Shown: one piece after another, positions 40,429-55,885 of the stretch
Layout of the letters: each line of letters starts with the position of its first letter
Numbering within the stretch: position 1 is the stretch's first letter
Made by a program: the position numbers and the translations under genes
The notes under the pieces: model-generated
The model's database searches: none
What the model was told of the DNA's origin: nothing
The model's input: the letters and a program-made list of their open reading frames with translations, nothing else
Source of the DNA: Engelhardtia mirabilis
GTDB lineage: Bacteria; Planctomycetota; UBA1135; GCA-002686595
Reading direction: 5' to 3'
Length of the DNA: 64,000 bases
Assembly (NCBI GenBank): GCA_007751255.1
Contig: CP036296.1
Location: 2,480,001 to 2,544,000 of the forward strand

Positions 40429-41421
40429 TCAGCGGCGCTTCCTCTCGAGTTCGAAGCGCACCTGGCCGCCGGTCTCGTCCGTGTCGATCGTCCGCATGTG
40501 CGTGCCGACGTCCGGGGAGGCGATCAACAGGTGCAGGGTCCCGGGCGGGTGGTCGAGGGACGCGCGTCCGTCGACGACCTCGGCGTCGCGGGGAGCGATC
40601 ATCAGCGGCGAGGCCTCGCCATCCTCGACCGAGACCCAGCGCAGGACCGCGTCGGTGAGCGGCTCGCCGGTAGCCCTCGAGACCAGGTCCAGCTCCAGGT
40701 GGGCCGTGGGCGGCGGCGCCTCGATCGTGATCTCGTTGGCGCCGGGCGCGAGCTGCAGCCGGCGCTCGCTGCCGCCGGGCTCGATCCGCAGGGCGTGCTC
40801 GCCGCTCGACAGGCCGTCGAGCCGGGCGACGAAGCCCGCGCCGTCGGGCTCGAGCACCAGCGGCCGGCCGATCGGATCGTCGCGGGTCTCGCGCCGCTGG
40901 GCCAGGGCTTCGTCCAGGGCGAACAGGGTCGCGCTGGGCGGACCATCCCCTTCACCCGCGGCGCGCAGGTGCAGCTCCAGGCTGGCCGGCGCCGGCGTGA
41001 CGGTGCGCAGGTCGAAGGCGACGCCGTGGTGGCGATTGGGCAGCAGGCGGAAGCGCCGGGTGGCCTTCGAGGTCTGCGTCGAGAGTTCGATCGCCACCTC
41101 GCCGGGATCCAGGAACCCGACGAAGATCTGGTCGTCCACGGCCGTGCGCGGTCCCAACTCGCGCTCGAACTCACCGCCCGCCTCGAACTCGATCCGCATC
41201 TGGATCGGCTCGTCGCGGTCGTCGCTGAGCACGTGCAGCCACAGGGCGGACTGCTCGAGGAACACGTCACCCTTCGCGGCCGGATCGAAGCCGGGCCAGA
41301 CGTCGTCGGCCACGGGCGCGCGGCTGCACGCGCAGGCGAAGAGGGCCGAGGCGAGGGCGGCCAGGGTCCGGCGACGGGCGGCGATGGGCGGGGCGACCCG
41401 ATGGGGAGCGGGGCGTTGCAT
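40429..41421 (-). CDS. Lipoprotein, beta-rich, at the end of the glycan gene set
   Basis: 330 residues. The ATG at 41421 has GGAAGG 3 nt upstream; an ATG at 41433 is an alternative. A basic N-terminus precedes ALASALFACAC, a lipobox with Cys near 32. The mature protein has several repeating beta units of about 80 residues with PGANEITIEAPPPTAHLELDLVSR and LDGLSSGEHALRIEPGGS, similar to carboxypeptidase-regulatory/peptidase-associated beta-sandwich modules. It lies 48 nt downstream of the GH20 gene on the same strand, so it may be part of that operon and have a surface binding role. Confidence 0.75.
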   Translation of the reverse strand: MQRPAPHRVAPPIAARRRTLAALASALFACACSRAPVADDVWPGFDPAAKGDVFLEQSALWLHVLSDDRDEPIQMRIEFEAGGEFERELGPRTAVDDQIFVGFLDPGEVAIELSTQTSKATRRFRLLPNRHHGVAFDLRTVTPAPASLELHLRAAGEGDGPPSATLFALDEALAQRRETRDDPIGRPLVLEPDGAGFVARLDGLSSGEHALRIEPGGSERRLQLAPGANEITIEAPPPTAHLELDLVSRATGEPLTDAVLRWVSVEDGEASPLMIAPRDAEVVDGRASLDHPPGTLHLLIASPDVGTHMRTIDTDETGGQVRFELERKRR

Positions 41422-41469
41422 CGTCCTTCCCATCGACCCCCGGGACGGCCGACCTGAACCCCGCCTGCT

Positions 41470-43143
41470 TCAGCCGTCGACGCGGGGCCACCAGGCGAGG
41501 CTGTCCTCGAGTCCGCCCGGGCGCGAGCCGGCGAGCCAGAGGCGGCGGTGCTCGGCGCGCACCCGCGCGGGCAACTCCCCGGTCGGCTCACCGGCTCCGG
41601 TGCGTGCACCCAACTCGGCCTGGTCCAGGGCGTGGTCGAGCTCGGCGTCGAGCTGGGCGTCCACGGCCGGTCGCGCGGCGCGCAGGTCGGCGAGGCGCTC
41701 GAGCGCCGCGTGCCAGGGCGCGGGATCTGCGGGCAAGCGGAAGGGGAAGCCCGAGGGGTGCAGCCGCTCGAAGAGGGCGGTGGCGTTGGTCAAACGGCGC
41801 GGCGAGCCGTCCGCCTCGGGGACGCCCGACACCGCGCGCAGGTCGCGGTCGGCGTCGCCCAGCTCCGCGAGCCAGTCCGCGAGCCGCAGGCTCTCGTCGC
41901 CGAAGACCTGCAGGCTGATCGCGCGCGGGTCCGGCTGCGCCGCCGGGTTCCAGGCCCGGCTCGCGAACTCGGCCAGGGCCAGGCGACCGATGGGCTCCAC
42001 CTGGCGGTGCCCCACGTCGCCCCACTCGGCGATCTGCACGCCTCGGGCGCCGTGTACCGCAGCGGCGGCGATGCAGCCCGCGAGGTTGGCGCGGCGCTCG
42101 GTGGTGCGCCCGGTGAAACTGCGCCAGGCCGAGGTGCCGCAGCACAGGTGGAAGGGCCGACCGCTCGCGGCCAGGGCACCGGCCTGGGCGTCGAAGGGGT
42201 GGTCGGGCTCGTAGCCCCAGGCCACCGGCACCAGGTCGGCGGAGAGCTCGGCCAGCCGGTCGGGGAAGTGCAGGGCGATGTCGGCCCAGAAGCGCGGCTC
42301 GAAACCCCGCTTGCGCGCCGCGGCGGCGACGCCGTCGAGGTGCCGGCGATACACCTCGAACACACCCACGGCCTGCACCTCCGCGCGCGAGCGACCCTGG
42401 CCCACGTCCTGGGTCTCGTCGCAGCCGACGTGGACCACGCGCGAGCTGAAGTTCTCGAGCAGCTCGTCCAGGAGGCCTTCGACGAAGGGCAGGCTGCGCC
42501 CGTCGGTGGGGCACAGGCTGAAGGGGCCTTGCAGCTCGATGCCCTCGAACACGAAGCACCCCAGGGTCTCGGCCAGGGGCGCGTAGCGCGGCAGGCGCAG
42601 CCAGCGCTCCAGGTGGCCGAAGCAGTTCTGGTTGGCGGCCAGGCGCACGGACCGACTCGCGAGCAGGGCATCGAGGCCGCGCACGTCGGCCGCGGTCAGG
42701 GGCGAGGCCGCGCGCCAGACCTCCTCGTGGTCGCGGTAGGCGAAGGTGTGTTCCGTGTACAGCTCGAGGTGGTTGAGCTTGAGCGCCGCCGTGCGCTCGG
42801 CGAGCTGGACCAAGAAGTGATTCGTCGGCACGCGATCGCGGCTGACGTCGAGCATGTAGCCGCGCTCGCCCCAGGCCGGCGCGTCCTCGATCGTGAGCCG
42901 CGGCAGGCGCGTGCCGTACTGGCGCCGCAACTGGGCCAGGGTCGCCTCGCCACGGGCGAAGCCGGCCTCGCCGAGGGCGGTGATCAACACGCCGTGCTCG
43001 TCCACGTCTAGGCGGTAGGCCTCCTCTGCGTAGCGGGTGTCGCGCCGACGGTCGGCCACGTGGTCGGCGCGCCAACCCTCGCGTCGGGTGAGCCGGCTGG
43101 GCGCCGGCACCAGCAGCGGGTCGAGCTCGCGCAGGTCGCTCAT
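41470..43143 (-). CDS. GH20-type beta-N-acetylhexosaminidase
   Basis: 557 residues. TIEDAPAWGERGYMLDVSRD opens the catalytic domain (GH20 enzymes have DxPxFxxRGxMLDxxR). LNHLELYTEHTFAY and NQNCFGHLERWL follow, and HVGCDET (about 235-241) holds the Asp-Glu pair that in GH20 orients the substrate acetamido group and acts as acid. No signal peptide, so it should act in the cytoplasm on terminal GlcNAc or GalNAc. The ATG overlaps the stop of the GH38 gene, coupling the two. The C-terminal 130 residues are helical. Some members of this branch are only annotated as GH20-like, so exact specificity is open. Confidence 0.85.
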   Translation of the reverse strand: MSDLRELDPLLVPAPSRLTRREGWRADHVADRRRDTRYAEEAYRLDVDEHGVLITALGEAGFARGEATLAQLRRQYGTRLPRLTIEDAPAWGERGYMLDVSRDRVPTNHFLVQLAERTAALKLNHLELYTEHTFAYRDHEEVWRAASPLTAADVRGLDALLASRSVRLAANQNCFGHLERWLRLPRYAPLAETLGCFVFEGIELQGPFSLCPTDGRSLPFVEGLLDELLENFSSRVVHVGCDETQDVGQGRSRAEVQAVGVFEVYRRHLDGVAAAARKRGFEPRFWADIALHFPDRLAELSADLVPVAWGYEPDHPFDAQAGALAASGRPFHLCCGTSAWRSFTGRTTERRANLAGCIAAAAVHGARGVQIAEWGDVGHRQVEPIGRLALAEFASRAWNPAAQPDPRAISLQVFGDESLRLADWLAELGDADRDLRAVSGVPEADGSPRRLTNATALFERLHPSGFPFRLPADPAPWHAALERLADLRAARPAVDAQLDAELDHALDQAELGARTGAGEPTGELPARVRAEHRRLWLAGSRPGGLEDSLAWWPRVDG

Positions 43144-46100
43144 CGGTCCAGCTCGACGTCGAGGGTGGCGACCTGGAACGGGGCCAGGCGCAGGTGCGGC
43201 CGACCGTCCTTCAGCTCGACGGCGAGGCGCGGATCCGCAGCGCCGCGCAGGTCCACGGCGCGCGCCGCGCGGACGGGGGCCGGGAAGCTCGCCGAGACGT
43301 CCACCGGTGCTCCGACGCCCTCCCAGATCCGCAGTCGCAAGCCGCCATCGATCAGCCGCAGCGACGACACGAACGCCGCGCCGCCGCCGGCAACCTGGAC
43401 GAGCTCGAAGGGGCCCGCCCGGCGCGCCGAGTCCACGTCGATGCGCGCCGGATCACCGCTCCAGGGCAGGGCCTCGGCGCGGGCGGTGATCTCCGCCAAC
43501 GGCGCGGGTCCGTCGTGGGGCACGAGCTCGATGCGAAAGCTGAGCGGCAGGGAGCTGTCGGCGGCCGGGTCGGGGAAGCGCGTCGCGCGCAGCAGCGACA
43601 GGCCGAGGGTGTCGCCCGCGCCGCTGGCCCCGTACTTCGAGTCGTTCAACACGGCTAGGCCCGCGTCGTCGCCCGACAGATCCATCCAGCGTTGGATCGG
43701 CACCTCGAAGCGCGCGCGCTCGGAGGGCGTGTCCAGGGTCAGGGGCCGCTCGAGGAAGCCGAAGGGGATCGACGCCTTCCAATGGTCCGCGCGCACGGCG
43801 ACGGGGAAGGCCATCCGCAAGAGCTTGCGCTCCTCCTTCCACGGGGTGCAGTGGATGCTCGCGCCCAGGCCGCGGCCGTCGGCGCTGGCGCGCCAGGTGA
43901 TCTTGATCACGGTGCCGGTGGCGAGTCGGCGCTCGAAGACGAGGCCCGGACCGCCGGTCAGGGGCTCGATCTTCGTGCAGGGGCCGTCGAGCTCCGCGAA
44001 GCGCGCGTGGTCCTCGGGGTCGATGTCCCAGGCCTCCCAGCGACGCGGGCGGTCGTCGTGCAGGCGCAGGGCCGCGATGGGGCGGCCGTCGATCGCCAAC
44101 TCGCGCCCGGCGGCGGTGACCAGCGAGCGCACGCGCCCCGCCTCGTCGAAGGTCGCGCGGAAGTGATCGGTGACGAGGGTCAGGTCGTCCAGCTCGCCCG
44201 CGGCGACGGCGCGGCTGCCGCCGGTTCGCAGGGTCAGGCCGAGCCCGGCGAGCGGCTCCTCGCCGAAGCACAGGACCTGCGCCCGGGTGGACGGATTGAA
44301 GACCACCTCCGTCGGGCGCGTCGCGTCCTTCTTCCAACCGCGGTCCAACTCGATCAGGGCCTCGATGTAGGCGTCGACCGCCTCCTCCACGACCTCGCGC
44401 GTGCCCGAGCCGGGGAGGATGTCGTGGAACTGGTTCAGGAGCAGCGTCCGTTGAACCCGCTCACAGGTGGCGGCGCGGTCCTCGTCGCCGGTCAGGGCCG
44501 CGATCACCTCGGACCCGCGCAGGCGCGCCTCGAGGAAGGCGTTGAGCTGCTTGAGCGAGGCCTGGCTGGTCCAGGTGCCCCGGTGCAACTCGAGGTACAG
44601 CTCGCCCTCGTGCACCGGCAGCTCGCGCCCGGCGTCGCGGGCGGCGGCGACCTCGGCGTGCAGGTGCTCGCAGAAGGCCGCGGTGCCGCGCGTGTCGACC
44701 CGCGGCAAGCCCTCGGCATCGGCGGCCAACTCGGCACGCCAAGCCTGTTCCGGCGTCGGCCCGCCGCCACCGTCTCCGAAGCCGTAGGGCAGGAGCCAAT
44801 CGTCCACGCCCGCCGTCTCGCGCTCGGCCGTGATGCGCTCGCCGCGTCGCAGCTCCACCGGGTGCACCGTCGCGTTGTAGTCCTGGCCGGGCGTCAGGTG
44901 CGCCAGGATCTCGCTGCCGTCGAGCCCGCGCCAGGTGAAGGTCGTGTGGGGGAAGGTCGTCGTCTCGCTCCACCACAGCTTGTTGGTGATGAAGGTGTCG
45001 AGGCCGGCGAGGCGCGCGAGCTGGGGCAGGCTGGCGCAGAAGCCGAAGGTGTCCGGCAGGTAGAGCAGGCGCTGGCGACCGCTCACGCCGAAGCGGCTCT
45101 CCATGTAGCGCGTGCCCTGCTCGAGCTGACGGCACAGGCTCTCGCCCGAGGGCATGTTCGCGTCGGGCTCGATCCACATGGCGCCCAGGGGCTCCCAGCG
45201 GCCGGCATCGACGGCGGCGCGCACGCGCTCGAAGAGCTGTGGCGAGTCCTCCTCGAGCCAGGCGTACTGCTGGGGTTGGCTGCACAGGAAGTGGAAGGAG
45301 CCCGAGTCCTCGATCGTGCGCAGGGCGGTGGAGAAGGTCCGCAGTGCCTTGCGGCGGGTCTGCGCCGTGGTCCAGAGCCAGGCCGTGTCCAGGTGGGCGT
45401 GGCCCACCGCGAAGCAGCGGCCGGCGTCGTCGGTCGCTCCGTTTGCGAGGACGCCCGTGAGGTGGTCGAGAGCGGCCGCAGCACCCACGCCGGGCTCGCG
45501 CGGATCGACGAGCGTGCGCACGTGCTCGAGCGCCGCCTGGAGCGCGTCGCCCCGTGCCGTGCCGTCGCCCAGGTCTTCGACCAGGTCCGCCACGAACAGG
45601 AACGCGTGCAAGAGGCGCCAGGCCACCGGGTCGCGTCGACACAGGCCCGCGCCCTCGAAGCGCCCCGGGTTCGGCTCCGCCCAGCGCCGGCGGACCTCGG
45701 CCTCGTCGAAGAAGAAGGTCGTCGCGCCCAGGGGCCGGTTGCAGTCGGCCTCGATCAGAAGCTCCACCGCGTCGCCGGGCGCGCCCACCGGGTCGATCGG
45801 GATCCGGCGCCGGTTCTCGTCGAGCCCGTGGGTCGGCGCGCCGTCGCGCCAGAGCAACGCTTCGGTCCCCGAGCAGAAGCGCAGCCAGGTCTGCCCCGGA
45901 TCGAGCCCCTCGCGAACCTCACCTCGCAGCCGGAACCAGGCCGTCGACCAGACCGGCCCCCAGCGCCAGCCGGGCTCCACCGGCTGCCAGCCCTCGGACT
46001 GCGCCGCCTCGCGGGCCGTCAACGCACGGCCGGGACGCAAGACCTCGGCCCGCAGGCGTTGGTCGACGGGGAAGGCGGCCGGTTCGAGGACCTGCTCGGC

Positions 46101-46145
46101 GTAGGTGCGCGCCCGCAGGGCGGCCAGGAGGGCATGGGTCACCAC
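43140..46145 (-). CDS. GH38 alpha-mannosidase
   Basis: 1001 residues, normal for long bacterial GH38 enzymes that release alpha-linked mannose. An N-terminal beta-sandwich domain (about 1-230) precedes the catalytic barrel with AVGHAHLDTAWLW (Zn-binding His and Asp, about 246-258), MWIEPDANMPSGESL with the nucleophile Asp near 325, LYLPDTFGFCASLPQL, and NQFHDILPGSGTREV with a Zn-binding His-Asp pair. The C-terminal third is the beta-rich GH38 domain. No signal peptide. Starts with GTG at 46145 or the adjacent GTG at 46142. First gene of the - operon GH38-GH20-lipoprotein. Confidence 0.94.
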   Translation of the reverse strand: MVTHALLAALRARTYAEQVLEPAAFPVDQRLRAEVLRPGRALTAREAAQSEGWQPVEPGWRWGPVWSTAWFRLRGEVREGLDPGQTWLRFCSGTEALLWRDGAPTHGLDENRRRIPIDPVGAPGDAVELLIEADCNRPLGATTFFFDEAEVRRRWAEPNPGRFEGAGLCRRDPVAWRLLHAFLFVADLVEDLGDGTARGDALQAALEHVRTLVDPREPGVGAAAALDHLTGVLANGATDDAGRCFAVGHAHLDTAWLWTTAQTRRKALRTFSTALRTIEDSGSFHFLCSQPQQYAWLEEDSPQLFERVRAAVDAGRWEPLGAMWIEPDANMPSGESLCRQLEQGTRYMESRFGVSGRQRLLYLPDTFGFCASLPQLARLAGLDTFITNKLWWSETTTFPHTTFTWRGLDGSEILAHLTPGQDYNATVHPVELRRGERITAERETAGVDDWLLPYGFGDGGGGPTPEQAWRAELAADAEGLPRVDTRGTAAFCEHLHAEVAAARDAGRELPVHEGELYLELHRGTWTSQASLKQLNAFLEARLRGSEVIAALTGDEDRAATCERVQRTLLLNQFHDILPGSGTREVVEEAVDAYIEALIELDRGWKKDATRPTEVVFNPSTRAQVLCFGEEPLAGLGLTLRTGGSRAVAAGELDDLTLVTDHFRATFDEAGRVRSLVTAAGRELAIDGRPIAALRLHDDRPRRWEAWDIDPEDHARFAELDGPCTKIEPLTGGPGLVFERRLATGTVIKITWRASADGRGLGASIHCTPWKEERKLLRMAFPVAVRADHWKASIPFGFLERPLTLDTPSERARFEVPIQRWMDLSGDDAGLAVLNDSKYGASGAGDTLGLSLLRATRFPDPAADSSLPLSFRIELVPHDGPAPLAEITARAEALPWSGDPARIDVDSARRAGPFELVQVAGGGAAFVSSLRLIDGGLRLRIWEGVGAPVDVSASFPAPVRAARAVDLRGAADPRLAVELKDGRPHLRLAPFQVATLDVELDR

Positions 46146-46192
46146 GCCGCGAGTCTAGTGGGGGCGGAGACGATCCGACGCCGCCCGGGCGC

Positions 46193-48166
46193 TCAAGGAA
46201 GGAACTCGAGCGGCGTCGAGCCCGAGGCAGCGCTGACTCCCGCCGCGCCGAGTGCGATCGCCGCGTGGTCGGCGCGCAGGCCCACCAGTGCCGCGGGCGC
46301 GCCGGGGGGCAGGGCGATGGCCGCCTGGGCGCGGCCGTCCTGGTCGAGGATCCCGAAGGTCTCGACGAGGGCACCCTGGTTGGCTGCGGTGAGGGTCGTC
46401 GAGGTGTAGGCGTCGAGCACGAGGGGCACGACCAGGCCGTCGACCGGGAGCCCGGGGGAGGTACCCGAGAGGCTGCCGGCCACCAGGTACGGCCTGCCGC
46501 CCTGGGTCGCACCCAGGTCGAGGGTGAGGTGCTGGGCGCCGCCCGCTGCCACGGACAACTGGGCCGTGTCGACGGTCAGGGCCTGGGCGCCGCGCTCGTG
46601 GGCGCCCATGTCGACCAGCGGTGCGCCGCCCGAGCCCACGTCCGCGGCCGGGTCGTCCTGGTTGCGTCCGCCACCCGTCAGGTCGAGCAGGGCCAGGCCC
46701 GCGACCAGGTCGTTGCGGCCCGCGTCGACGCAGGGCGAAGTCGCCGACAGGTGCAGGTCCCCGCCGACGCCGGGGACCACGAACAGCGGGTCCTGGTCGG
46801 TGCAGCCGGGCAGCTTCGAGGGCTCGATCGGGTCCTCGCCCGGCGCGTGGGGCGCGAAGATCGTCTCGACGCAGGACCAGGATAGATCGAAGCTGCCGCC
46901 GAGCTGCTCCTTCCAACCACCTTGGATCTCGACGTTGGAGGCCTGGTTGCCCCACAGGATCGAGTTGTCGATGGTCATGGTGGCGTTGTTGCCGGCGTAG
47001 AGGCCTGCGTACTTGACGGCCGTGTTGTGGGCCACGGTGCAGTTGACCATCCGCAACTCGGCACCGGCGTAGGAGTTGACCATCGCGGCGCCGCCCCAAC
47101 CGCCCTGGTCGGTGATCGTTCCGGGCACCTCGAAGGCCACGTTGTCGGCGAATACCGAGTTGACCACCAGGGTCGGACCCCAGGTCATCAGGCCGGCCCC
47201 GAGCTGCGAGCGGTTGCGCCGGAAGACGCAGTCGCGGATCTCGACGCCCGCCAGGAACGACGACAGGCCGCCGCCGTGGGTGGGGTAGTTGCTCACCGAG
47301 TAGAACTGCTTGGTCTGGTTGTCCTCGAACAGACAACCCGTGACCTCGACCGGGAGCGTCCCGAACAGGTAGACGGCTCCGCCGGAGGCGTCACCGCTGG
47401 CGGCCACGGCCACGTTGCGGGCGAAGCTGCAGCGGCGAATCGTCGGCTCGCTAGCGCCCGCCACGTACAAGGCACCGGCGTTGCCGAGGTGGGTGTAGTT
47501 CTCGAGGAAGCTGCAGTCCTCGAAGATCGGGCTGGCGTCGAACACGTAGGCCGCGCCGCCCGAGGCGAAGGCGGCCTCGCAGTGCGCGAACGTGACGTTA
47601 CGCAGGACCGGGGACGCGTCCCGGCAATAGAGACCGCCGCCGACCATCAGCTCGGAGCCCGCCGGTGTCCCGGCCGGGCCGAGCAGGCCCGCCTCGACCG
47701 TCAGGCCATCGACGATCGTTCCCGCCCCCACGTTCTGGGCCCGCAACACGTGCCCCGAGTTGGCGCTGTGGATGTTCCAACTCAGGTACCAGGACAGGCC
47801 GCTGCCGACCTCGTCGTCCTGCCCGATGTCGCCGGACAGCCGAGTCGGGTTGGCGATCCAGTCGCGCTGGGCCAGGCTCGTCTCCCCGCCCGCGAAGCCG
47901 CCGTAGAGCGCGACCCCGTCCACCAGCACGAAGCTCGCCGTGGCGTCGATGTCGGAGGGGGTGTAGACCCCGGCCGCGATCCAGATCTCGTCCCCGGCCG
48001 AGGCGGCGGCCAGGGCGGACTGCAGGTCACCGAAGGCGTCGGTCCAGGTGGTGCCGTCGGCGGCGCCGGTGGCCGCGGCGTCGACGTGGATCGTCGCCGC
48101 CTCGGCGAAGGGAGCCGAGAGGGGGGCCGCGAGGGCGATCGCGAACAGGGCTCGGGGTGTGTTCAT
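46193..48166 (-). CDS. Secreted right-handed parallel beta-helix protein
   Basis: 657 residues. Signal peptide LFAIALAAPLSAPFAEA, then TIHVDAAATGAADGTTWTDA and LQSALAAASAGDEIWIAAGVYTP, the standard opening of planctomycetal and related beta-helix surface proteins. The core (about 130-430) has repeated rungs such as PVLRNVTFAHCEA, PIFEDCSFLENY, PTIRRCSFARN and VEIRDCVFRRN, followed by SPCVDAGRN and VDMGAHE, typical of choice-of-anchor Q type proteins. A C-terminal beta domain of about 130 residues may serve sorting. Likely surface-exposed, possibly polysaccharide binding or degrading; no lyase residues can be assigned. It is divergent from the sugar-binding protein gene across 57 nt and downstream of nothing else on its strand. 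Confidence 0.87.
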   Translation of the reverse strand: MNTPRALFAIALAAPLSAPFAEAATIHVDAAATGAADGTTWTDAFGDLQSALAAASAGDEIWIAAGVYTPSDIDATASFVLVDGVALYGGFAGGETSLAQRDWIANPTRLSGDIGQDDEVGSGLSWYLSWNIHSANSGHVLRAQNVGAGTIVDGLTVEAGLLGPAGTPAGSELMVGGGLYCRDASPVLRNVTFAHCEAAFASGGAAYVFDASPIFEDCSFLENYTHLGNAGALYVAGASEPTIRRCSFARNVAVAASGDASGGAVYLFGTLPVEVTGCLFEDNQTKQFYSVSNYPTHGGGLSSFLAGVEIRDCVFRRNRSQLGAGLMTWGPTLVVNSVFADNVAFEVPGTITDQGGWGGAAMVNSYAGAELRMVNCTVAHNTAVKYAGLYAGNNATMTIDNSILWGNQASNVEIQGGWKEQLGGSFDLSWSCVETIFAPHAPGEDPIEPSKLPGCTDQDPLFVVPGVGGDLHLSATSPCVDAGRNDLVAGLALLDLTGGGRNQDDPAADVGSGGAPLVDMGAHERGAQALTVDTAQLSVAAGGAQHLTLDLGATQGGRPYLVAGSLSGTSPGLPVDGLVVPLVLDAYTSTTLTAANQGALVETFGILDQDGRAQAAIALPPGAPAALVGLRADHAAIALGAAGVSAASGSTPLEFLP

Positions 48167-48223
48167 GCGAGGGGGGAGTGCCGGGGTGCGGCGATAGTTC
48201 AGCCAATCACGGTTTTTCGTACG

Positions 48224-49648
48224 GTGTGCGCCGCGCTGCCGGCGCCAGCGGCCGGCGAGGAGCCGCGCCCCACCTTGGATGCCTCCCCCGAGCCCACCGC
48301 CCCCGGCGCCAGCGTCAGCCGTCGCGTCGCCCTGGGCCTGCTCGGTGCGGCCGGCGCCGCGGCCCTCTTGACTCCCGGCCGCCGTCGGACCGTCCCGGCC
48401 GGGCGCGTGCACCTGCGCTATTGGGAGAAGTGGACCGGCGCCGAGGGCGAGGCGGTCCAGCGCATCGTGGATCGCTTCAACGCCAGCCAGGACCGCTCCT
48501 GGGTCGAGCGCGTGCCCGTGGCCGAGATCTTCTCCAAGGCCATGGTGGCCATCGGCGGCGGTGACCCGCCGGACGTGGTGGGGCTGTTCTCCTGGAACGT
48601 GCCCTACTTCGCGGAGGCGCGCGCGCTGATGCCCTTCGACGACTTCCCCGGTGGGGCGGAGCTGGCGAGCGGCTACTACGCTCCGGCCATCGAACGCCTC
48701 TTGCAGCACGAGGGCCGGCTGTGGTGCGGCGCGAACACCTGCTACAGCCTGGTGCTCTACGCCAACCGCGCGCGCCTGGCCCAGGTCGGCCTCGACGCGC
48801 CGCCGGCGACGATCGAAGAACTCGACGCGGTCTCCGAACGCCTGGTCGAGCGCGGCGCCGACGGCCGCATCACCCGCGCGGGCTTCCTGCAGAACATTCC
48901 GCTGTGGTGGCCTTACGTCTGGCCGAGCCTGTTCGGCGCCGAGCTGATGGAGCCCGGTCACGGCGAGCGCCCGCCGCGCATGAGTCTGGCCTCGGAAGGC
49001 TGCCGCCGCGCCTACCAGTGGGTCTCCGACACCGCCGAGCGCCACGGCCGCGCCGCTTCGCGCTCCTTCGGCTTGTCCTGGGAACGCACGATGCTGTCCG
49101 CCGCGGATCCGTTCCTGTCGGGCGGGGTGGCCATGACCGTCCAGGGACCCTGGATGGCCAACTTCGCGCGGCAGTTCACGCCGAACCTCGACTACGTCGC
49201 CGCGCCCGTGCCGGTGCCCGCCGCGGACCTGGACCCGGCGCGTCCGCGCGGCCTGCTCGAGTGCGACACGATCGGCATCCCCCGCGGCTGCCCGCACCCG
49301 GAGGAGGCCTGGGAGTTCGTGCGTTTCACCCAGACGCGTGAGTCCCAGGAGGAGTTGGCTCGCGCCCACTGCAAGCCGAGCCCCCTGGCGACGACGTCGC
49401 CGGACTTCCTGGTCGGGCACCCCAATCCCTTCGTCGCCGTGCACGAGGCCGTGGCCAAGAGCCCGGCGGTGTCGGTCTTGCCCGAGACCCGCGCGTGGAA
49501 GGCGACCAGCGACCTCATGGTCCAAGCCTTCGACGCGATCTGGATGGGCGCGGACGTGGGCACCGAGCTCGAGCGCGTGCAGACGCGCGCCCAGGGTTTG
49601 CTCGAGGCCGCGCGCGAGCGCTACCGGGCGCGGCGGGAGCGAGTCTGA
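48224..49648 (+). CDS. ABC sugar transporter substrate-binding protein
   Basis: 474 residues from a GTG at 48224; other starts (TTG near 48275) are possible and no ribosome site is visible. A SRRVALGLLGAAGAAALLTPG segment (about 37-57) is a twin-arginine-like or membrane-anchor signal and lacks a lipobox. The mature domain is a family-1 solute-binding protein: LRYWEKWTGAEGEAVQRIVDRFN, GGGDPPDVVGLFSWNVPYFA, a middle segment with TCYSLVLYANRARLAQVG, TVQGPWMAN and GIPRGCPHPEEAWEFVRFTQT. It should deliver oligosaccharides to the permeases at 50822 and 51694. It precedes an ATP-grasp gene by 3 nt. Confidence 0.88.
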   Translation: MCAALPAPAAGEEPRPTLDASPEPTAPGASVSRRVALGLLGAAGAAALLTPGRRRTVPAGRVHLRYWEKWTGAEGEAVQRIVDRFNASQDRSWVERVPVAEIFSKAMVAIGGGDPPDVVGLFSWNVPYFAEARALMPFDDFPGGAELASGYYAPAIERLLQHEGRLWCGANTCYSLVLYANRARLAQVGLDAPPATIEELDAVSERLVERGADGRITRAGFLQNIPLWWPYVWPSLFGAELMEPGHGERPPRMSLASEGCRRAYQWVSDTAERHGRAASRSFGLSWERTMLSAADPFLSGGVAMTVQGPWMANFARQFTPNLDYVAAPVPVPAADLDPARPRGLLECDTIGIPRGCPHPEEAWEFVRFTQTRESQEELARAHCKPSPLATTSPDFLVGHPNPFVAVHEAVAKSPAVSVLPETRAWKATSDLMVQAFDAIWMGADVGTELERVQTRAQGLLEAARERYRARRERV

Positions 49649-49651
49649 GCC

Positions 49652-50575
49652 GTGGCTGCTGCCACGAGGCGCGCACCCGTGGCCTGGGTGCTCAACTTCG
49701 ATGCCGAGGAGGAGCTCGCGGTGCCGCGCCGCTACCAGCCCACGGCGGCGATGCTCGCCGTCCTCGCCCGGCAGCGAGCGCGACTGGTCGAGGAGTCGGC
49801 GCGCGGGCGCAGCTTCCTCGCACCCGGTGACCTGATCGTCGACGAGCGCACTCCGCCCGGCGCGGCCGCCGGCCTCGAGGGTCGCGCTTGGTGTCCGACC
49901 CCGCGGGCGGTGGGTCTGCTCGAGCGGGCGGGTGCGACGCCGCGCGGCGTCCTGGACGTCGACGTCCTGCGCCGCGTCAACGCACGCCCCTTCGCGGCGG
50001 AGCTGCGCGAGCGCCTGGAGGGCCCGGCGTTCGAGAAACGGATTGCTTCGGACCTCGACGAAGCTCTGTCTCTCGTCGCACGCCCGGCCGCCCTGGGCTG
50101 GCTCGTGCGCCGGACCTTCGGCGCGGCGGGCCGCGGCCGCCGCCGACTCGCGGCCGGACGCGTCGAGGGCCCCGACCGCGCCTGGCTCGCCGCGAGCCTG
50201 GCCCGCGGGCCGGTAGTGGTGGAGCCCTGGGCCGATGTCGTCGAAGAGCTCACCGTCTGCGGTGCCGTGACGGCCAGTGGCAACGTCCAAGTGCTCACCC
50301 CCGGCTTCCAGCTCACCACTCGCCAGGGCGCCTGGACGCGAACCGACGCGGCCGACCCGAATCACCTCGGCCGCGCGGACGATTCCACGGTGCTCGCCGC
50401 CTGCAATGAAGTCGGCCGCGCCCTCGCTGCCGCTGGCTACCGCGGTCCCTTCGGAATCGACGCTTTCCGCCACCGCCCCGCCCCGGGAGCCGCGCCGCAC
50501 CTCAACGTCCTCAGCGAGATCAACGCACGCCTGACCATGGATCGGATCGAGTCGGTCGGAAGCGACAACCGCTGA
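49652..50575 (+). CDS. ATP-grasp domain protein
   Basis: 307 residues from a GTG, 3 nt after the binding-protein stop. The start VAWVLNFDAEEELAVPRRY and WCPTPRAVGLLERAG, then LDVLRRVNARPFAAEL, the lysine-like block LGWLVRRTFGAAGRGRRRL, VVVEPWADVVEELTVCG and YRGPFGIDAFRHR...LNVLSEINARLTM with the acidic/Asn metal site, match a family of ATP-grasp proteins of unknown substrate in planctomycetes and myxobacteria. ATP-grasp enzymes join a carboxylate to an amine, thiol or similar group. Placement inside a sugar-import operon is unusual. No signal peptide. Confidence 0.78.
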   Translation: MAAATRRAPVAWVLNFDAEEELAVPRRYQPTAAMLAVLARQRARLVEESARGRSFLAPGDLIVDERTPPGAAAGLEGRAWCPTPRAVGLLERAGATPRGVLDVDVLRRVNARPFAAELRERLEGPAFEKRIASDLDEALSLVARPAALGWLVRRTFGAAGRGRRRLAAGRVEGPDRAWLAASLARGPVVVEPWADVVEELTVCGAVTASGNVQVLTPGFQLTTRQGAWTRTDAADPNHLGRADDSTVLAACNEVGRALAAAGYRGPFGIDAFRHRPAPGAAPHLNVLSEINARLTMDRIESVGSDNR

Positions 50576-50734
50576 CCGAACCGCGCTCCCGGTCCGAAGC
50601 CGGGCCGCGGATCAGCCCTCCCGCGCACCGCGGACCGAGTGCGATCCGAGATCGTGTGGTAGCGCCACGGGTGCCCGGATTCCCGAGACCCTCCGGCTCG
50701 TGGCTCGAGGGACGGGCCTGCAGGCCTGCGCCCG

Positions 50735-50754
50735 CCGTCGCTAGGATGCGACGG
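50735..50754. promoter_or_regulatory. Inverted repeat around a TAGGAT box
   Basis: CCGTCGC-TAGGAT-GCGACGG: a perfect 7-bp inverted repeat flanking a six-base centre that resembles the window's -10 motif, 68 nt before the first permease start. It may be an operator overlapping a promoter for the permease operon, such as for a LacI-like regulator, though none is encoded here. Confidence 0.45.
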
Positions 50755-50821
50755 TGAATCCCGGGCTCAACGACTGCGTGGCTCCTGCTCAGCGCGCCAG
50801 GGGCGTGGGCGAGGTCACAGG

Positions 50822-51697
50822 GTGAGTCGCGCTACCGAGCACCGCGCCGGCTGGATCTGGGCCTCGCCCTTCCTGGTGGGAGCCGTGGTCTTCCTCGCCG
50901 TGCCGGTCGGGTTGGCGCTCTACACCGGATTCACCGACTACGCCCTGATCGAGTCGCCCCTGTGGATCGGACTCGACAACTACCGGGAGATGGGGGACGA
51001 CCCCGTGTTCTGGCAGAGCATCCGCAACACCGCCGTCTACACCGCCGCGGCGGTGGCGCTCAACTTCCTGGTGTCGCTGGGCCTGGCGCTGCTGCTCGAA
51101 CAGCGGCTGCGCGGGCGCGAAGTGGTGCGGGCGGTGGTCTTCGCGCCGGTGCTCGTGCCGATCGTTGCCTCGGCCATCGGCTGGATGTGGCTCTACCACC
51201 AGGAATTCGGGCTGTTCAACGTGGTTCTGCGGCGGCTCGGGCTGTCCGGCGTCGACTTCCTCGGTGACGGGCGCTTCGCCCTGATGTCCCTGGTGGTGAT
51301 GGGGGCCTGGGTGGTCGGCTCCCAGGTGCTGGTGCTGACGGCGGCCCTGCGCGGCGTGCCGCGGGAGTTGATCGAAGCGGCGGGCCTGGACGGTGCTTCG
51401 GCCATCTGGCGGCTGCGCGCGGTGGTGCTGCCGGCGATCGGCCCGGCGCTGATGTTCAACCTGATCGTCTCGATCATCTGGGCGGCGCAGGTCTTCGCCG
51501 CGCCCCTGGTGATGACCCGCGGCGGTCCGGCGGGGGCGACCCAGGTCTTCACCATGTCGATCTTCCAGAACGCCTTCCAGTACGGCCGCATGGGCTACGC
51601 CAGCGCCCTGGCCTGGTTGCAGTTCTTGGTCATCCTCGGGCTGACGGCCATCGCCCTGCGGCTCGGACGACGCTTCGTGCAGACGGAGGCGGTGTGA
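50822..51697 (+). CDS. ABC sugar transporter permease, MalF type
   Basis: 291 residues with six transmembrane helices. AGWIWASPFLVGAVVFLAVPVGLALYTGF at the N-terminus and the EAA loop ELIEAAGLDGASAIWRLRAVVLP (conserved EAAxxDGA...F..I.LP) are typical of MalF-type permeases. MTRGGPAGATQVFTMSIFQNAF also matches family. GTG start. Coupled by 4 nt to the next permease. Confidence 0.93.
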   Translation: MSRATEHRAGWIWASPFLVGAVVFLAVPVGLALYTGFTDYALIESPLWIGLDNYREMGDDPVFWQSIRNTAVYTAAAVALNFLVSLGLALLLEQRLRGREVVRAVVFAPVLVPIVASAIGWMWLYHQEFGLFNVVLRRLGLSGVDFLGDGRFALMSLVVMGAWVVGSQVLVLTAALRGVPRELIEAAGLDGASAIWRLRAVVLPAIGPALMFNLIVSIIWAAQVFAAPLVMTRGGPAGATQVFTMSIFQNAFQYGRMGYASALAWLQFLVILGLTAIALRLGRRFVQTEAV

Positions 51698-52593
51698 GGC
51701 GCTCGCGTTTGCAGGCTTGGCTGCTGTATCCGTTGCTGGTCCTGGTGGGGGCGGTGTGGGCCTTGCCTCTGTTCTGGATGCTGTCGACGTCGCTGAAGCC
51801 GGAGAGCCAAGCCCTGTCGGCGGACGTGGGGCTGCTGCCGGTGGTGGTCGACGCCGAGGGTGCGCCGCGCTCGGCCCTGGAGCCCGCCTATTGGGCGGAA
51901 GCCGCCGCGACCGCCGCCGACAACTACACCGACGTGTGGACCAGCCCCTCCGCCGACTTCCCGCGCTACTTCCGCAACTCCGTGCTCGTCGCGAGCCTGT
52001 CGACCCTCGGCATGACCCTCTCCAGCGCGATCGTGGCCTACGCCCTGGCGCGCCTGCGCTGGCGGGGGCGGCAGCTCGTGTTCGGCATCGTCCTGGCGAC
52101 GATGACCCTGCCGTTCACCGTGTTGATGGCGCCCCAGTACCTCCTGTTCAAGCACCTGGGCCTGATCGGCACGCTCGTGCCCCTGTGGCTGCCGGCCTGG
52201 TTCGGCGGCGCCTTCTCGATCTTCCTTCTGCGGCAGTTCTTCCTGACCCTGCCCAAAGAACTCGACGAGGCCGCGGAGATCGACGGCTGCGGCCGCTGGG
52301 CGACCTTCTGGCGGGTGCTGATGCCCAACGCCGTGCCGGCCCTGGCGACGGTGGCCCTGTTGCAGTTCGTGGCCTCCTGGAACGACTTCATCGCGCCGCT
52401 GGTGTTCGTCAACCACCAGGAGCAGTACACCCTGGCGCTGGGTCTGCGGATGTTCCAGAGTCAGCACGGCGGCACCCAGTGGACCGAGCTGATGGCCGCC
52501 AGCGTCTTGACCACGGCGCCGGTGCTGGTGCTGTTCGTGGTCTGCCAGCGCTTCTTCGTCCAGGGCTCCGCCAGCGAGGGGCTCAAGGGCTGA
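51694..52593 (+). CDS. ABC sugar transporter permease, MalG type
   Basis: 299 residues, six transmembrane helices. YFRNSVLVASLSTLGMTLSSAIVAYALARLRW and the EAA loop ELDEAAEIDGCGRWATFWRVLMP, then ALLQFVASWNDFIAPLVF, are typical of MalG-type permeases. It has an insertion of about 40 residues after helix 1 (residues 40-75). GTG start overlapping the first permease. No ATPase gene lies in the locus, so a shared MsmK-type ATPase is implied. Confidence 0.93.
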   Translation: MRRSRLQAWLLYPLLVLVGAVWALPLFWMLSTSLKPESQALSADVGLLPVVVDAEGAPRSALEPAYWAEAAATAADNYTDVWTSPSADFPRYFRNSVLVASLSTLGMTLSSAIVAYALARLRWRGRQLVFGIVLATMTLPFTVLMAPQYLLFKHLGLIGTLVPLWLPAWFGGAFSIFLLRQFFLTLPKELDEAAEIDGCGRWATFWRVLMPNAVPALATVALLQFVASWNDFIAPLVFVNHQEQYTLALGLRMFQSQHGGTQWTELMAASVLTTAPVLVLFVVCQRFFVQGSASEGLKG

Positions 52594-52610
52594 GACCCCC
52601 ATAGAGATCC

Positions 52611-53393
52611 ATGCACCCCAGCGACCTGGACCCCGAGGACGAGACCGATCTGGCGCCCTACGAGCGCGAGCTGCCGCGGCGCCAGGTGCGTCGGCGCTAC
52701 ACCGCCAAGCGCGCGGCGGAGACCTTCGAGATCGACGGGGACCTGACCAAGAAGGCCTGGGCCGCAGCCGAGTGGACCGAGGACTTCGTGGACATCGAGG
52801 GGCCGCTCAAGCCCGAGCCGCGGCACCGCACGCGGGCCAAGCTGCTGTGGGACGCCCAGCACCTCTACATCGCCGCCGAGCTGGTCGAGCCGCACCTGTG
52901 GGCGACCCTCACCGAGCGCGACGCGGTGATCTTCCACGACAACGACTTCGAGGTCTTCCTGAACCCCTCCTGCGACGGGCTCAACTACTACGAGCTAGAG
53001 GTCAACGCCCTGGGCACCGTCTGGGACCTGGTGCTGCGTAAGCCCTACCGCATGGGCGGGCCGGCCGACAGCGAGTGGCGGATCGAAGGGCTCCGCACGG
53101 CGGTGCAGCTCGACGGCACGCTCAACGACCCGACCGACACCGACCGCGGCTGGACGGTGGAGATCGCGATCCCCTTCGCGGCCCTCGGGATCCACACCGA
53201 AACGCCGGCGGCGCCGGAGGTCGGCGACAGGTGGCTACTCAACTTCAGCCGCGTGCAGTGGGACCTCGAGGTGCACGAGGGCGCTTACCGCAAGGTGCCC
53301 AAGACCCCCGAGCACAACTGGGTCTGGTCGCCCCAGGGCATGGTCGACATGCACCTGCCCCTGCGTTGGGGCTGGCTCCACTTCGCCGAGTGA
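52611..53393 (+). CDS. CBM9-like carbohydrate-binding protein
   Basis: 260 residues. TFEIDGDLTKKAWAAAEWTEDFVDIEG, RAKLLWDAQHLYIAAELVEP, FHDNDFEVFLNPSCDG, NYYELEVNALGTVWDL and WTVEIAIPFAAL are the CBM9-like pattern (the domain that in some xylanases binds sugar ends). No signal peptide and no catalytic domain. Coupled to the beta-mannosidase by a 4-nt overlap and 17 nt after the permease, so it is probably part of the same operon, perhaps holding imported oligosaccharide. Confidence 0.85.
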   Translation: MHPSDLDPEDETDLAPYERELPRRQVRRRYTAKRAAETFEIDGDLTKKAWAAAEWTEDFVDIEGPLKPEPRHRTRAKLLWDAQHLYIAAELVEPHLWATLTERDAVIFHDNDFEVFLNPSCDGLNYYELEVNALGTVWDLVLRKPYRMGGPADSEWRIEGLRTAVQLDGTLNDPTDTDRGWTVEIAIPFAALGIHTETPAAPEVGDRWLLNFSRVQWDLEVHEGAYRKVPKTPEHNWVWSPQGMVDMHLPLRWGWLHFAE

Positions 53394-55885
53394 GCGCCAA
53401 CTGCAGCGTCGAGGTCGGCGGCTGGACCCTGCGCCAAGCGGGACGGCGGCCCCGCGTCGAGGGCGAGATCGCGGCGGTGGTGCCGGGATCGGTCCAGGCC
53501 TCGCTGCTGGCGGCGGGGCTCCTGCCGCCGCTCGAGGAGGGTCTGGCCGAACTCGATTGGCAGTGGGTGCCGCGGGCCACTTGGAGCTACCGCGACGAGC
53601 TCGCGATCCCTGCCGAGCTCGCCGCTGCGCGCCGCCTGCGCCTGCGCTTCGGCGGGCTCGACACCCTGGCGCAGGTCCGACTGGGTCGACGGGATCTGGG
53701 CCGCACCGACAACGCCATGCGGACCTGGGACTTCGACCTGACCGGCTCCAAGCCCGGCACCCACGCCCTGCGCGTGGACTTCGAGCCGATCTTCGCCTAC
53801 CTCACCGAGCGCGATCTCGAACGCAACCTGCCCGCCTGGGGCGTCGGCGCCGACAAGGACCACTCGGGGGCCTGGGTCCGCAAGCCGCCGGTGCACTTCG
53901 GTTGGGACTTCGCGCCGAAGGTCGTGCCGGTGGGGATCACCGGGAGCGTGTGGTTGGAGGCGACCGACCTGGCGCGGATCGATTGGGTGCGAGTGGATCA
54001 GGAGCACCGCCGCGGTCGGGTCGACCTGCGCCTGGGCGTCGAGTTGGATCGCGTCGGCCGCGGGTCCGTCGTCGTCACCTCACGGCTGTCCTTCGCGGGC
54101 GAGTCGATCGCAGAGGCGACCGCAACGGTTGGCGGCGCACGGTCGGAGCTGGGTCTGCGCGTCGACGATCCCAGACTCTGGTGGCCGCGGGGGCTGGGCG
54201 ACCAACCCCTCTACGACCTCGAAGTCGTCGCGCACGATCGCGATGGCGCCGAGCTCGACCGCTGGAGCCGCCGGATCGGCCTGCGCCGCCTCGAGCTCGA
54301 GCGGCGCCCGGACGCCGATGGCGAGGGCTTCGCCTTCGTGGCCAACGGCCGACGCTTCTTCGCCCGCGGGTCGAACATCGTGCCGCCGCTGGCCCTGCCG
54401 ACCCAAGGCGGCGCGACCGCCGGGGCCGAGGCCGCCCTGGTCGACGAAGCGGCCGCGGTCCACATGAACTGCCTGCGCGTGTGGGGCGGCGGGCCCTACG
54501 CCTCAGACGCCTTCTACGACCGCTGCGACGAGCTGGGCCTGATCGTCTGGCAGGACTTCCCCTTCGCCTGCTGCACCTATCCGACCTTCGACCGCGAGTG
54601 GATGGCGAACGTGCGCGCGGAGGCCACCGAGCACGTGCGGCGCTTGCAGCACCGGGCGTCGCTGGCGCTGTGGTGCGGCAACAACGAGCTGGAGAACGGC
54701 CTCTCGGGTCCGCGTTGGACCGATGTACGCATGTCCTGGAGCGACTACCGTCGGCTCTTCGACCGGCTCTTGCCCGAGGTCGTCACCGCCCACGACGGCA
54801 CGCGCCCCTGGTGGCCCGGCAGCCCGCATTCGCCCTCGGGCGATCGCATGGCGTTCAACTCGCCGGACTCGGGCGACGCACACCTGTGGGGAGTCTGGCA
54901 CGGGGGCGAGCCCTTCGAGAGCCAGACCGCGAGCCGCCACCGCTTCGTGAGCGAGTTCGGGTTCCAGAGCTTCCCGGCGCCGGCGACGTTCAACGCGCGC
55001 ATCCCGGCCGCGCAGCGCAGATTGGATTCGGACGCGGTGGGGCACCGCCAGCGTTCAGGCGTGGGCACGGCGCGCCTGCTCGAGTACCTGCGACGCGAAC
55101 ACCGCCTGCCGCGCACCTTCGCCGATCAACTCTGGCTGACGCAGATCCTTCAAGCCGAGGGGATGCTGCTCGGGATCGAGCATTGGCGGCGCTCGGCGCG
55201 CTGTTCTGGCGCGCTGCTCTGGCAGCTCAACGAGCCCTGGGCCGCGCCGACTTGGTCGACGATCGACCGCGACGGCCGCTGGAAGGCCCTGCACTTCGCC
55301 CTGGCGCGGGCCTTCGCGCCGCGGGCCATGTCCCTGGCCCAGCGCGGCGGTCGGGTCGAGGTCTGGGCCCTCGACGACGGCGGTGCGGCCGAGGTGGAAG
55401 GCAACGCGCGGTTGTGGAAGTCCGACGGAGACCTGGCGCGGGAGTGGAGCTTCGGCGGGCAGATCGGTCGCAGCGGGCGGGGCAAGGTCTGGACCCTGGA
55501 CCTGGCCGCTGCCTGCGCGGAGGTGTCGCTGCCGCAAGGCGAGGCCCTGTTGGCGGTGGACGTGACGGTCGCGGGTGAGTCCATCGCCAGGCCGCAGCTG
55601 GCGAAGTTGGTTCCCTGGCGCGAGGTTGCACTCGGTCATCCGAACGTCCGTCTCGTGGAGGTCGCGCGCGAGAACGGCCGCGTGCGCGTGCGCGTCAGCT
55701 GCGACCGCCCGGCGCCGTGGACCTTCGTCCAGGCGGGCGCGGGCGTGCGCGGCGAGGCGCCCCGACCGATCGCGGGGCAGGAGGGCGGACAATTCCTGCA
55801 TCTGTTCCCCGATGTCGAACGGGATCTGGTCCTCGAGACCCGATCCCATTCGCTCAGCCCGCGGTCTTTGCAGTCCCTGACCTGA
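53390..55885 (+). CDS. GH2 beta-mannosidase
   Basis: 831 residues, the normal length of GH2 beta-mannosidases. A GH2 N-terminal sugar-binding domain (TWSYRDEL, RLRLRFGGLDTLAQVRLG, NAMRTWDFDL), a second sandwich domain, then the barrel: FVANGRRFFARGSNIVPP, HMNCLRVWGGGPYASDAFYDRCDELGLIVWQDFPFACC, acid/base in ALWCGNNELENG (Glu about 433) and nucleophile in FVSEFGFQSFPA (Glu about 521), and SGALLWQLNEPWAAPTWSTID. These fit beta-mannosidases better than beta-galactosidases or glucuronidases. No signal peptide, so cytoplasmic. Last gene of the + operon; GTG start overlapping the CBM9-like gene. Confidence 0.93.
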   Translation: MSANCSVEVGGWTLRQAGRRPRVEGEIAAVVPGSVQASLLAAGLLPPLEEGLAELDWQWVPRATWSYRDELAIPAELAAARRLRLRFGGLDTLAQVRLGRRDLGRTDNAMRTWDFDLTGSKPGTHALRVDFEPIFAYLTERDLERNLPAWGVGADKDHSGAWVRKPPVHFGWDFAPKVVPVGITGSVWLEATDLARIDWVRVDQEHRRGRVDLRLGVELDRVGRGSVVVTSRLSFAGESIAEATATVGGARSELGLRVDDPRLWWPRGLGDQPLYDLEVVAHDRDGAELDRWSRRIGLRRLELERRPDADGEGFAFVANGRRFFARGSNIVPPLALPTQGGATAGAEAALVDEAAAVHMNCLRVWGGGPYASDAFYDRCDELGLIVWQDFPFACCTYPTFDREWMANVRAEATEHVRRLQHRASLALWCGNNELENGLSGPRWTDVRMSWSDYRRLFDRLLPEVVTAHDGTRPWWPGSPHSPSGDRMAFNSPDSGDAHLWGVWHGGEPFESQTASRHRFVSEFGFQSFPAPATFNARIPAAQRRLDSDAVGHRQRSGVGTARLLEYLRREHRLPRTFADQLWLTQILQAEGMLLGIEHWRRSARCSGALLWQLNEPWAAPTWSTIDRDGRWKALHFALARAFAPRAMSLAQRGGRVEVWALDDGGAAEVEGNARLWKSDGDLAREWSFGGQIGRSGRGKVWTLDLAAACAEVSLPQGEALLAVDVTVAGESIARPQLAKLVPWREVALGHPNVRLVEVARENGRVRVRVSCDRPAPWTFVQAGAGVRGEAPRPIAGQEGGQFLHLFPDVERDLVLETRSHSLSPRSLQSLT

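Follow-up and report, generated by a model that had tools for sequence, protein, structure and literature searches.

What the planctomycete Engelhardtia mirabilis does with a cluster of putative mannoside-degrading genes is the question raised by a locus at positions 40429 to 55885 of a 64,000-nucleotide stretch of its genome (the window; GenBank assembly GCA_007751255.1, contig CP036296.1, positions 2,480,001 to 2,544,000; genome of 6.95 Mb in two contigs, 90.5% complete). An earlier note, made from sequence without database searches, had listed glycoside hydrolases (GH) of families GH38, GH20, and GH2, a sugar ATP-binding cassette (ABC) importer, and a protein resembling carbohydrate-binding module family 9 (CBM9), and had proposed that they degrade N-glycan-type mannosides inside the cell. 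We called genes from open reading frames with a custom composition script and verified the key genes with Pfam, which bore out this list (Table 1). The importer is represented by a binding protein and two permeases, but its ATPase gene does not lie within the locus; an ATP-grasp-like gene, absent from the earlier list, was found between the binding protein and the permeases. As set out below, the locus probably imports short N-glycan-type oligosaccharides of mannose and N-acetylglucosamine (Man-GlcNAc) and dismantles them in the cytoplasm.

The two mannosidases and their location carry this proposal. All three GH38 domains (N-terminal, middle, and C-terminal) were detected (PF01074, 244.6 bits, with PF07748 and PF09261), and the top solved match was fungal Ams1 (7vqo, 382 bits), compared with 25 bits for SpGH38 (2wyh). 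By sequence similarity, this protein is therefore assigned to the Ams1/MAN2C1 branch, whose substrates are free oligosaccharides released from glycoproteins (PMC7609781; here and below, statements drawn from cited papers refer to the accessible parts of those texts). The 11 best solved matches of the GH2 protein were all named beta-mannosidase (365 to 268 bits), which makes it beta-mannosidase-like as judged from sequence. Glutamates are present in its WCGNNE and VSEFG regions, presumably in catalytic roles, whereas solved 5n6u has a cysteine at the first of these positions; another of the top solved matches, 6ddt, we take to be the C. acnes enzyme. A screen based on hydrophobicity and motifs rather than on SignalP found no export-type N-terminus on GH38, GH20, GH2, or CBM9, in agreement with the earlier statement that the hydrolases lack signal peptides; thus, the alpha-mannosidase and the core beta-mannosidase are both without export signals. 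In the same screen, the binding protein showed an SRR motif followed by a hydrophobic stretch, resembling a twin-arginine translocation (Tat) signal. Import followed by internal degradation, as the note had it, is likely, given the Ams1-like GH38, the beta-mannosidase-like GH2, and the GH29, GH130, and glycosylasparaginase-like genes that related loci add. Four-base overlaps join GH38 to GH20 (ATGA), permease 1 to permease 2 (GTGA), and CBM9 to GH2 (GTGA), and each pair is therefore probably cotranslated.

The importer points to a mannosyl ligand. The best solved match of the binding protein was 4r9f "MBP1" (112 bits; runner-up, 50 bits), which we take to be CpMnBP1 from the mannan system of Caldanaerobius polysaccharolyticus; to our knowledge, that system includes no alpha-mannosidase. 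CpMnBP1 itself is a manno-oligosaccharide binder from a system for mannan-derived manno-oligosaccharides (PMC4792470). Binding of Man-GlcNAc would be predicted from relatedness to 4r9f. The importer genes are linked to the hydrolase genes, whereas the sole OB_MalK (PF17912) match in the window genome, a candidate for the ATPase, lies at 3.90 Mb, outside the locus.

We examined conservation starting from GH38. Matches to this query came from 12 of 61 relatives and, at 1e-60, from 59 of the 392 phylum genomes, and a wider contig search gave 26 loci; its named relatives were mostly Planctomycetota records. In a tree of 40 GH38 rows, 34 formed one group (support 100/100), 33 of them from planctomycete records or relatives and one (L048) labeled as a cyanobacterial metagenome bin (G and L numbers denote genomes and fetched loci; the window genome is G000). 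The window paired with G029 (100/99), and L035, L036, and L048 then joined this pair (94/97). Partner genes were counted in these 34 loci over a fetched stretch of up to ~11 kb from GH38, with several loci on short contigs. An ABC importer with a homologous binding protein was found in 5 loci and an SSS symporter in 8; GH2 was present in 7 and GH130 in 3 (either GH2 or the substitute GH130, 10); CBM9 occurred in 7, a GH29 alpha-fucosidase in 5, and NagB/PIG-L and epimerase genes in 1 each. A glycosylasparaginase-like gene was present in 4 of the 34, against 0.085 expected by a rough estimate that presumes random placement and takes related loci as independent. In the window's subgroup, each of the five rows shows the importer or the glycosylasparaginase-fucosidase pair. 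The gene set that the earlier note expected to be conserved is kept in part. Four other Planctomycetota loci (L061, L035, L047, and L049) share the combination of GH38, binding protein, two permeases, and GH2. GH20, by contrast, is not supported as a conserved third hydrolase: of the 34 clade loci, the window alone has its type, and one other has an ordinary GH20. Regular absence of a hydrolase from orthologous loci, which the note had named as a finding against its proposal, was thus observed. The conserved theme is GH38 with a transporter, often with a beta-mannoside enzyme, in which ABC and SSS transporters interchange, as do GH2 and GH130. Such interchange of ABC importer with sodium symporter and of GH2 with GH130 beside one conserved GH38 offers a testable case of module swapping.

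Some individual loci depart from this pattern or extend it. Eight loci without the ABC importer have an SSS symporter close to GH38: L024, L028, L042, L156, L161, L181, L184, and L185. In L056 (8322-15101), the neighbors of GH38 on its two sides are a NagB/PIG-L fusion and a gene of the GlcNAc 2-epimerase family, which point to amino-sugar use. An ordinary GH20 (360 bits) sits between CBM9 and GH38 at L156:9788-11230 (G255), a separate pairing of GH20 with GH38. The CBM9 relatives carry a lipobox in 6 of 8 cases (L024, L042, L151, L153, L156, and L161) and none in L061 and L035.

A further gene bears on how glycans would be released from protein. In G029 (L061), CBM9 and GH2 are separated by a PF01112 gene, and others lie near GH38 in L036, L047, and L048. 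The L036 copy scored 214 bits to glycosylasparaginase versus 117.5 to an L-asparaginase/isoaspartyl-peptidase-type enzyme, and the L047, L048, and L061 copies were typed by phmmer against it. The window genome has a copy at 1.418 Mb (L207:9772-11091; glycosylasparaginase, 196 bits, versus isoaspartyl peptidase, 113), with a DPPIV/S9 peptidase gene about 3 kb off. Six of six such proteins (L036, L047, L048, G000, G029, and G255) carried Tat motifs in a motif screen. Glycosylasparaginase-type genes occurred in 11 of 14 genomes with this GH38 clade versus 2 of 38 with other GH38s (p 4e-7 by genome). This count covers 52 of the 61 GH38-matching genomes, made up of two from the set of relatives and the 59 of the phylum (G095, G132, G150, G170, G213, G214, G292, G340, and G382 omitted) and places G245 and G339 in the clade by fragment identity only; it includes G383 as glycosylasparaginase-type but neither the second match in G324 nor the larger piece in G184, both of which are of the other type; the small G184 piece gave no match. 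Counted by family, the figures were 5 of 7 versus 2 of 16, with p between 0.003 (for 1) and 0.026 (for 3), and relatedness therefore explains part of the signal. PF01112 irrespective of type gave 12 of 14 versus 10 of 38, which mixes the glycosylasparaginase and isoaspartyl-peptidase types. Five of the 11 co-occurring genes are of the window-genome type (G000, G029, G079, G245, and G255). It is this link that would surprise a specialist, and cleavage of GlcNAc-Asn would be the predicted activity. Small secreted proteins of unassigned family, homologous to each other, are encoded beside the window-genome copy (L207:8969-9727) and after GH2 in G029 (L061:17303-18142).

Endo-acting enzymes were sought genome-wide. 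GH18 gave no match in the window genome and was positive in 2 of 14 genomes; GH85 was found in none of the 14, the window genome included. The endo-beta-N-acetylglucosaminidase of a pneumococcal-type locus thus had no counterpart by GH18 or GH85 match, PNGase not having been searched. The exported glycosylasparaginase-like enzyme, encoded elsewhere in the window genome and within the locus in G029, is the only candidate for deglycosylation to emerge.

In the pathway that we propose, the oligosaccharide would be caught in the periplasm by the binding protein, itself exported by the Tat route, and the two permeases, powered by a MalK-type ATPase encoded elsewhere, would bring it in. The Ams1-type GH38 would then strip alpha-mannose and GH2 the beta-mannose; in this organism, the leftover chitobiose may be split by GH20, which is coupled to GH38 in translation and was perhaps acquired from an operon for murein recycling. 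A wider scheme, offered tentatively, is that in some Planctomycetota N-glycoproteins are degraded by exo-action, much as in lysosomes: exported peptidases, a fucosidase, and a Tat-exported glycosylasparaginase, rather than an endo-glycosidase or PNGase, would detach the glycan from asparagine in the periplasm; a mannoside ABC importer or a sodium symporter would carry the oligosaccharide inward to a cytoplasmic Ams1-type GH38, to an enzyme of family GH2 or GH130, and, for the window organism, also to a GH20 taken over from murein recycling, while in other families the glycosylasparaginase would be intracellular. An M28 peptidase domain was found at L061:9925-12477. Of five GH29 proteins passed through the export screen, L035 and L036 have a clear signal and L047 has one after an internal start; none was seen in L164 or in the screened stretch of L049. 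Polysaccharide uptake has been reported for the planctomycete paryphoplasm (PMC5520146). If the scheme is true, planctomycetes scavenge N-glycoproteins without any endo-glycosidase; glycosylasparaginase, so far described chiefly for lysosomes, Elizabethkingia, and lactobacilli, heads a fuller N-glycan pathway; and annotators gain a means to recognize such loci outside the gut.

Several observations weigh against the import and cytoplasmic degradation proposed for the locus. The closest relatives of the GH20 protein point to murein recycling, as judged from their neighborhoods, and the nearest solved relative of the binding protein presumably comes from a mannan system. Eighteen of the 34 clade loci, several of them on short contigs, lack any scored partner family (three of these, L046, L052, and L054, hold weakly similar ABC permeases). 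Clade GH38 was present in only 2 of 20 CBM9 loci fetched (L156 and L161; L150, L151, L163, and L164 have other GH38s), and CBM9 is therefore not specific to the system. The window genome has no GH29 match, and its glycosylasparaginase-like gene lies 1.1 Mb from the locus. The tryptophan near the mature N-terminus, which has a recognized role in glycosylasparaginases, is present in L036, L048, and 1p4k and absent from the G000, G029, and L047 copies, so that their substrate is not certain. Six of the 11 co-occurring glycosylasparaginase-type genes (G299, G368, G389, G413, G416, and G339) form a second subtype. In five of these six proteins, the sequence starts at or close to the catalytic domain, with no clear export signal ahead of it; they would act inside the cell, by analogy with Lactobacillus casei.

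The GH20 protein could instead serve purely in murein recycling, in trans with AnmK and MurQ, with its place beside GH38 accidental and the mannoside system independent of it, a reading that we regard as possible rather than probable. The protein is divergent. Its Pfam scores are above cut-off but weak (PF00728, 33.5 bits; PF02838, 36.7 bits), and it is far from all solved sequences (41 bits at best); the GH20 domains, together with a D242-E243 pair invariant in 13 aligned sequences, support its family membership. GH20s of this type were matched in 55 of 392 genomes. In the 12 loci read out of these, chosen mostly among the best matches, AnmK-like genes lay beside GH20 in 10, MurQ-like genes in 9, and a symporter in 6 (examples confirmed by Pfam), and G029 has the symporter, GH20, AnmK, and MurQ all together. 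In the window genome, the corresponding set at 2.087-2.091 Mb (L223) lacks GH20 and consists of MurQ, the symporter, and AnmK, and one GH20 copy of this type was reported in it (3 of 21 candidates scored). These neighborhoods and the single copy would suit a murein function. On the other side, the ATGA overlap implies coupling to GH38, and the structures closest to the predicted GH20 model (pLDDT 86.7) are GH20C, which belongs to the N-glycan locus of S. pneumoniae, and GcnA of S. gordonii (TM about 0.7). Moreover, GH20 and AnmK are on different contigs in 10 of the 11 other window-family genomes having both (G029 being the exception), so the AnmK link is not universal. AnmK scored 249-280 bits in those ten genomes, 154 in the window genome, and 164-204 where it adjoins GH20. 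The window GH20 resembles AnmK-linked copies more (up to 51 percent) than the copies of those ten family members (40-44 percent), and it likely reached the side of GH38 from an AnmK-linked setting. The simple story that GH20 merely left an AnmK-MurQ operon in this lineage was not adopted and is kept as a possibility, since the family genomes split both genes and have AnmK of the higher-scoring type. In its own right, a planctomycete set of divergent GH20 with AnmK, mostly MurQ, and often an SSS symporter recurs in L169-L171, L173-L178, and L180 (e.g., L178:7590-13291), suggesting a GH20 step in murein recycling; the open-access literature yielded no description of a GH20-AnmK-MurQ operon or planctomycete equivalent.

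Other explanations concern the substrate. The importer might take up beta-manno-oligosaccharides from plant or algal mannan for degradation by GH2, with GH38 trimming alpha-mannose. The presumed mannan origin of 4r9f fits this, as does the activity of GH2 and GH130 enzymes on mannan oligosaccharides too, and a Bacillus mannan cluster has been described whose importer likewise has no ATPase gene of its own (PMC4792470). We nevertheless judge it unlikely: scanning of the locus proteins, though not of the whole genome, detected no mannanase family, an alpha-mannosidase for free oligosaccharides has no evident role on beta-mannan, and related loci carry a fucosidase and a glycosylasparaginase-like gene. 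Turnover of the cell's own mannose-containing surface glycans would accord with the arrangement in G029, where an O-antigen-ligase-family gene (PF04932) separates GH38 from the binding protein; it is improbable beside the importer, fucosidase, peptidase, and glycosylasparaginase-like genes of related loci, which better suit scavenging of foreign glycoproteins. GH38 might also serve to break down a small alpha-mannoside solute, for example mannosylglycerate, like E. coli MngB (which we take to be a GH38 member). A weak match to the mannosylglycerate hydrolase model (59.3 bits; cut-off, 1138) speaks for this, but the reading was rejected as very improbable: Ams1 is a much nearer relative of the protein than SpGH38 or 3lvt is, and the beta-mannosidase and GlcNAc-related partners would be left unexplained.

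Compared with known systems, the import of Man-GlcNAc oligosaccharides and their cytoplasmic breakdown, which the locus most likely carries out, is a known strategy, here assembled from different parts; the possible novelty is a glycosylasparaginase in place of an endo-enzyme. The contrast drawn in the earlier note with SusCD-type loci holds, as no SusC or SusD Pfam match was found among the locus proteins scanned, yet ABC import and internal breakdown were already described in S. pneumoniae, for which GH20C, GH38, GH125, GH92, GH29, EndoD, NgtS, NgtP1, and NgtP2 are listed (PMC5215778). The two share GH38, GH20, and an importer of one binding protein and two permeases; the pneumococcus also has EndoD (GH85), GH92, GH125, and GH29, partly at separate places (PMC5215778), whereas the window has GH2 and CBM9, gave no match to GH18 or GH85, and carries a GH20 with nearest relatives adjoining AnmK-MurQ. 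The pneumococcal GH38 would fall in another branch, judging from the 25 bits of the S. pyogenes enzyme. A high-mannose N-glycan operon is also known from Bifidobacterium longum and is said to include an importer and an endo-enzyme. It shares the placement of GH38 enzymes in one operon but differs in having three of them and a GH125 (PMC10154615). The same 2023 review assigns demannosylation to GH38, GH92, and GH125 and cleavage of Man-beta-1,4-GlcNAc to GH2, GH5_18, and GH130; the words "asparaginase," "ABC," and "Planctomyc" are absent from its accessible part (PMC10154615), as are "GH38," "N-glycan," and "mannosidase" from the accessible main text of a planctomycete CAZyme survey (PMC11131199). 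The alf-2 cluster of L. casei likewise combines a glycosylasparaginase with an alpha-fucosidase, a peptidase, and a permease and serves an N-glycan-derived glyco-amino acid, but its substrate is Fuc-GlcNAc-Asn, its AsnA2 is intracellular, and "mannosidase" does not appear in the accessible text (PMC6960285); in the window's subgroup, the glycosylasparaginase-like enzyme is predicted to be Tat-exported, and mannosidases are present. This paper was the only one found in the open-access literature on glycosylasparaginase with an N-glycan gene cluster in bacteria, no paper on aspartylglucosaminidase in Planctomycetes was found there, and among those listed on aspartylglucosaminidase in bacterial N-glycan degradation none dealt with this combination, a search that leaves most subscription journals uncovered. 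Fungal Ams1 and mammalian MAN2C1 catabolism uses the same GH38 branch to take alpha-mannose off free oligosaccharides, but it is eukaryotic and has no importer (PMC7609781).

Table 1. Features of the candidate mannoside locus, in window coordinates
Feature	Coordinates	Strand	Basis
Lipoprotein with LFAC lipobox	40429..41433	-	No Pfam match; no match in other GH38 loci compared
Divergent GH20 hexosaminidase without signal peptide	41470..43143	-	Pfam, export screen, alignment, predicted model
GH38 alpha-mannosidase, Ams1/MAN2C1 type, without signal peptide	43140..46145	-	Pfam, solved-structure matches, tree
Secreted right-handed beta-helix protein	46193..48166	-	PF13229, 56.2 bits; signal-like N-terminus
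ABC sugar-binding protein, Tat-like N-terminus	48314..49648	+	PF01547, 71.6 bits, CUT1-type
ATP-grasp-fold protein, function not assigned	49652..50575	+	Predicted model match
ABC permease 1	50822..51697	+	PF00528
ABC permease 2	51694..52593	+	PF00528
CBM9-domain protein without signal peptide	52611..53393	+	PF06452, 40.3 bits
GH2 beta-mannosidase without signal peptide	53390..55885	+	PF22666, 111.5 bits; solved-structure matches

The ATP-grasp protein had no Pfam match and no PDB sequence match, and its predicted model resembles PurK-like enzymes. Members of its family were found in 68 of 121 relatives; in G029, the gene is at 4.88 Mb and GH38 at 3.33 Mb; and only the window, among the five ABC-type loci, carries the gene between binding protein and permeases. 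A role in the system was accordingly considered unsupported, and the protein is probably a passenger. On the minus strand, the order of transcription is beta-helix, GH38, GH20, and lipoprotein, with the beta-helix gene 47 bases upstream of GH38. The export screen gave signal-like N-termini for both the lipoprotein and the beta-helix protein, which the earlier note had suggested as surface helpers; neither had a counterpart in the related GH38 loci compared, apart from weak beta-helix matches in L034. For the binding protein, alternative starts at 48212 or 48224 are possible. Downstream of the locus lie genes for an S41 peptidase (58126-59499, plus strand) and a PhoD-like phosphatase (62063-63991, minus strand).

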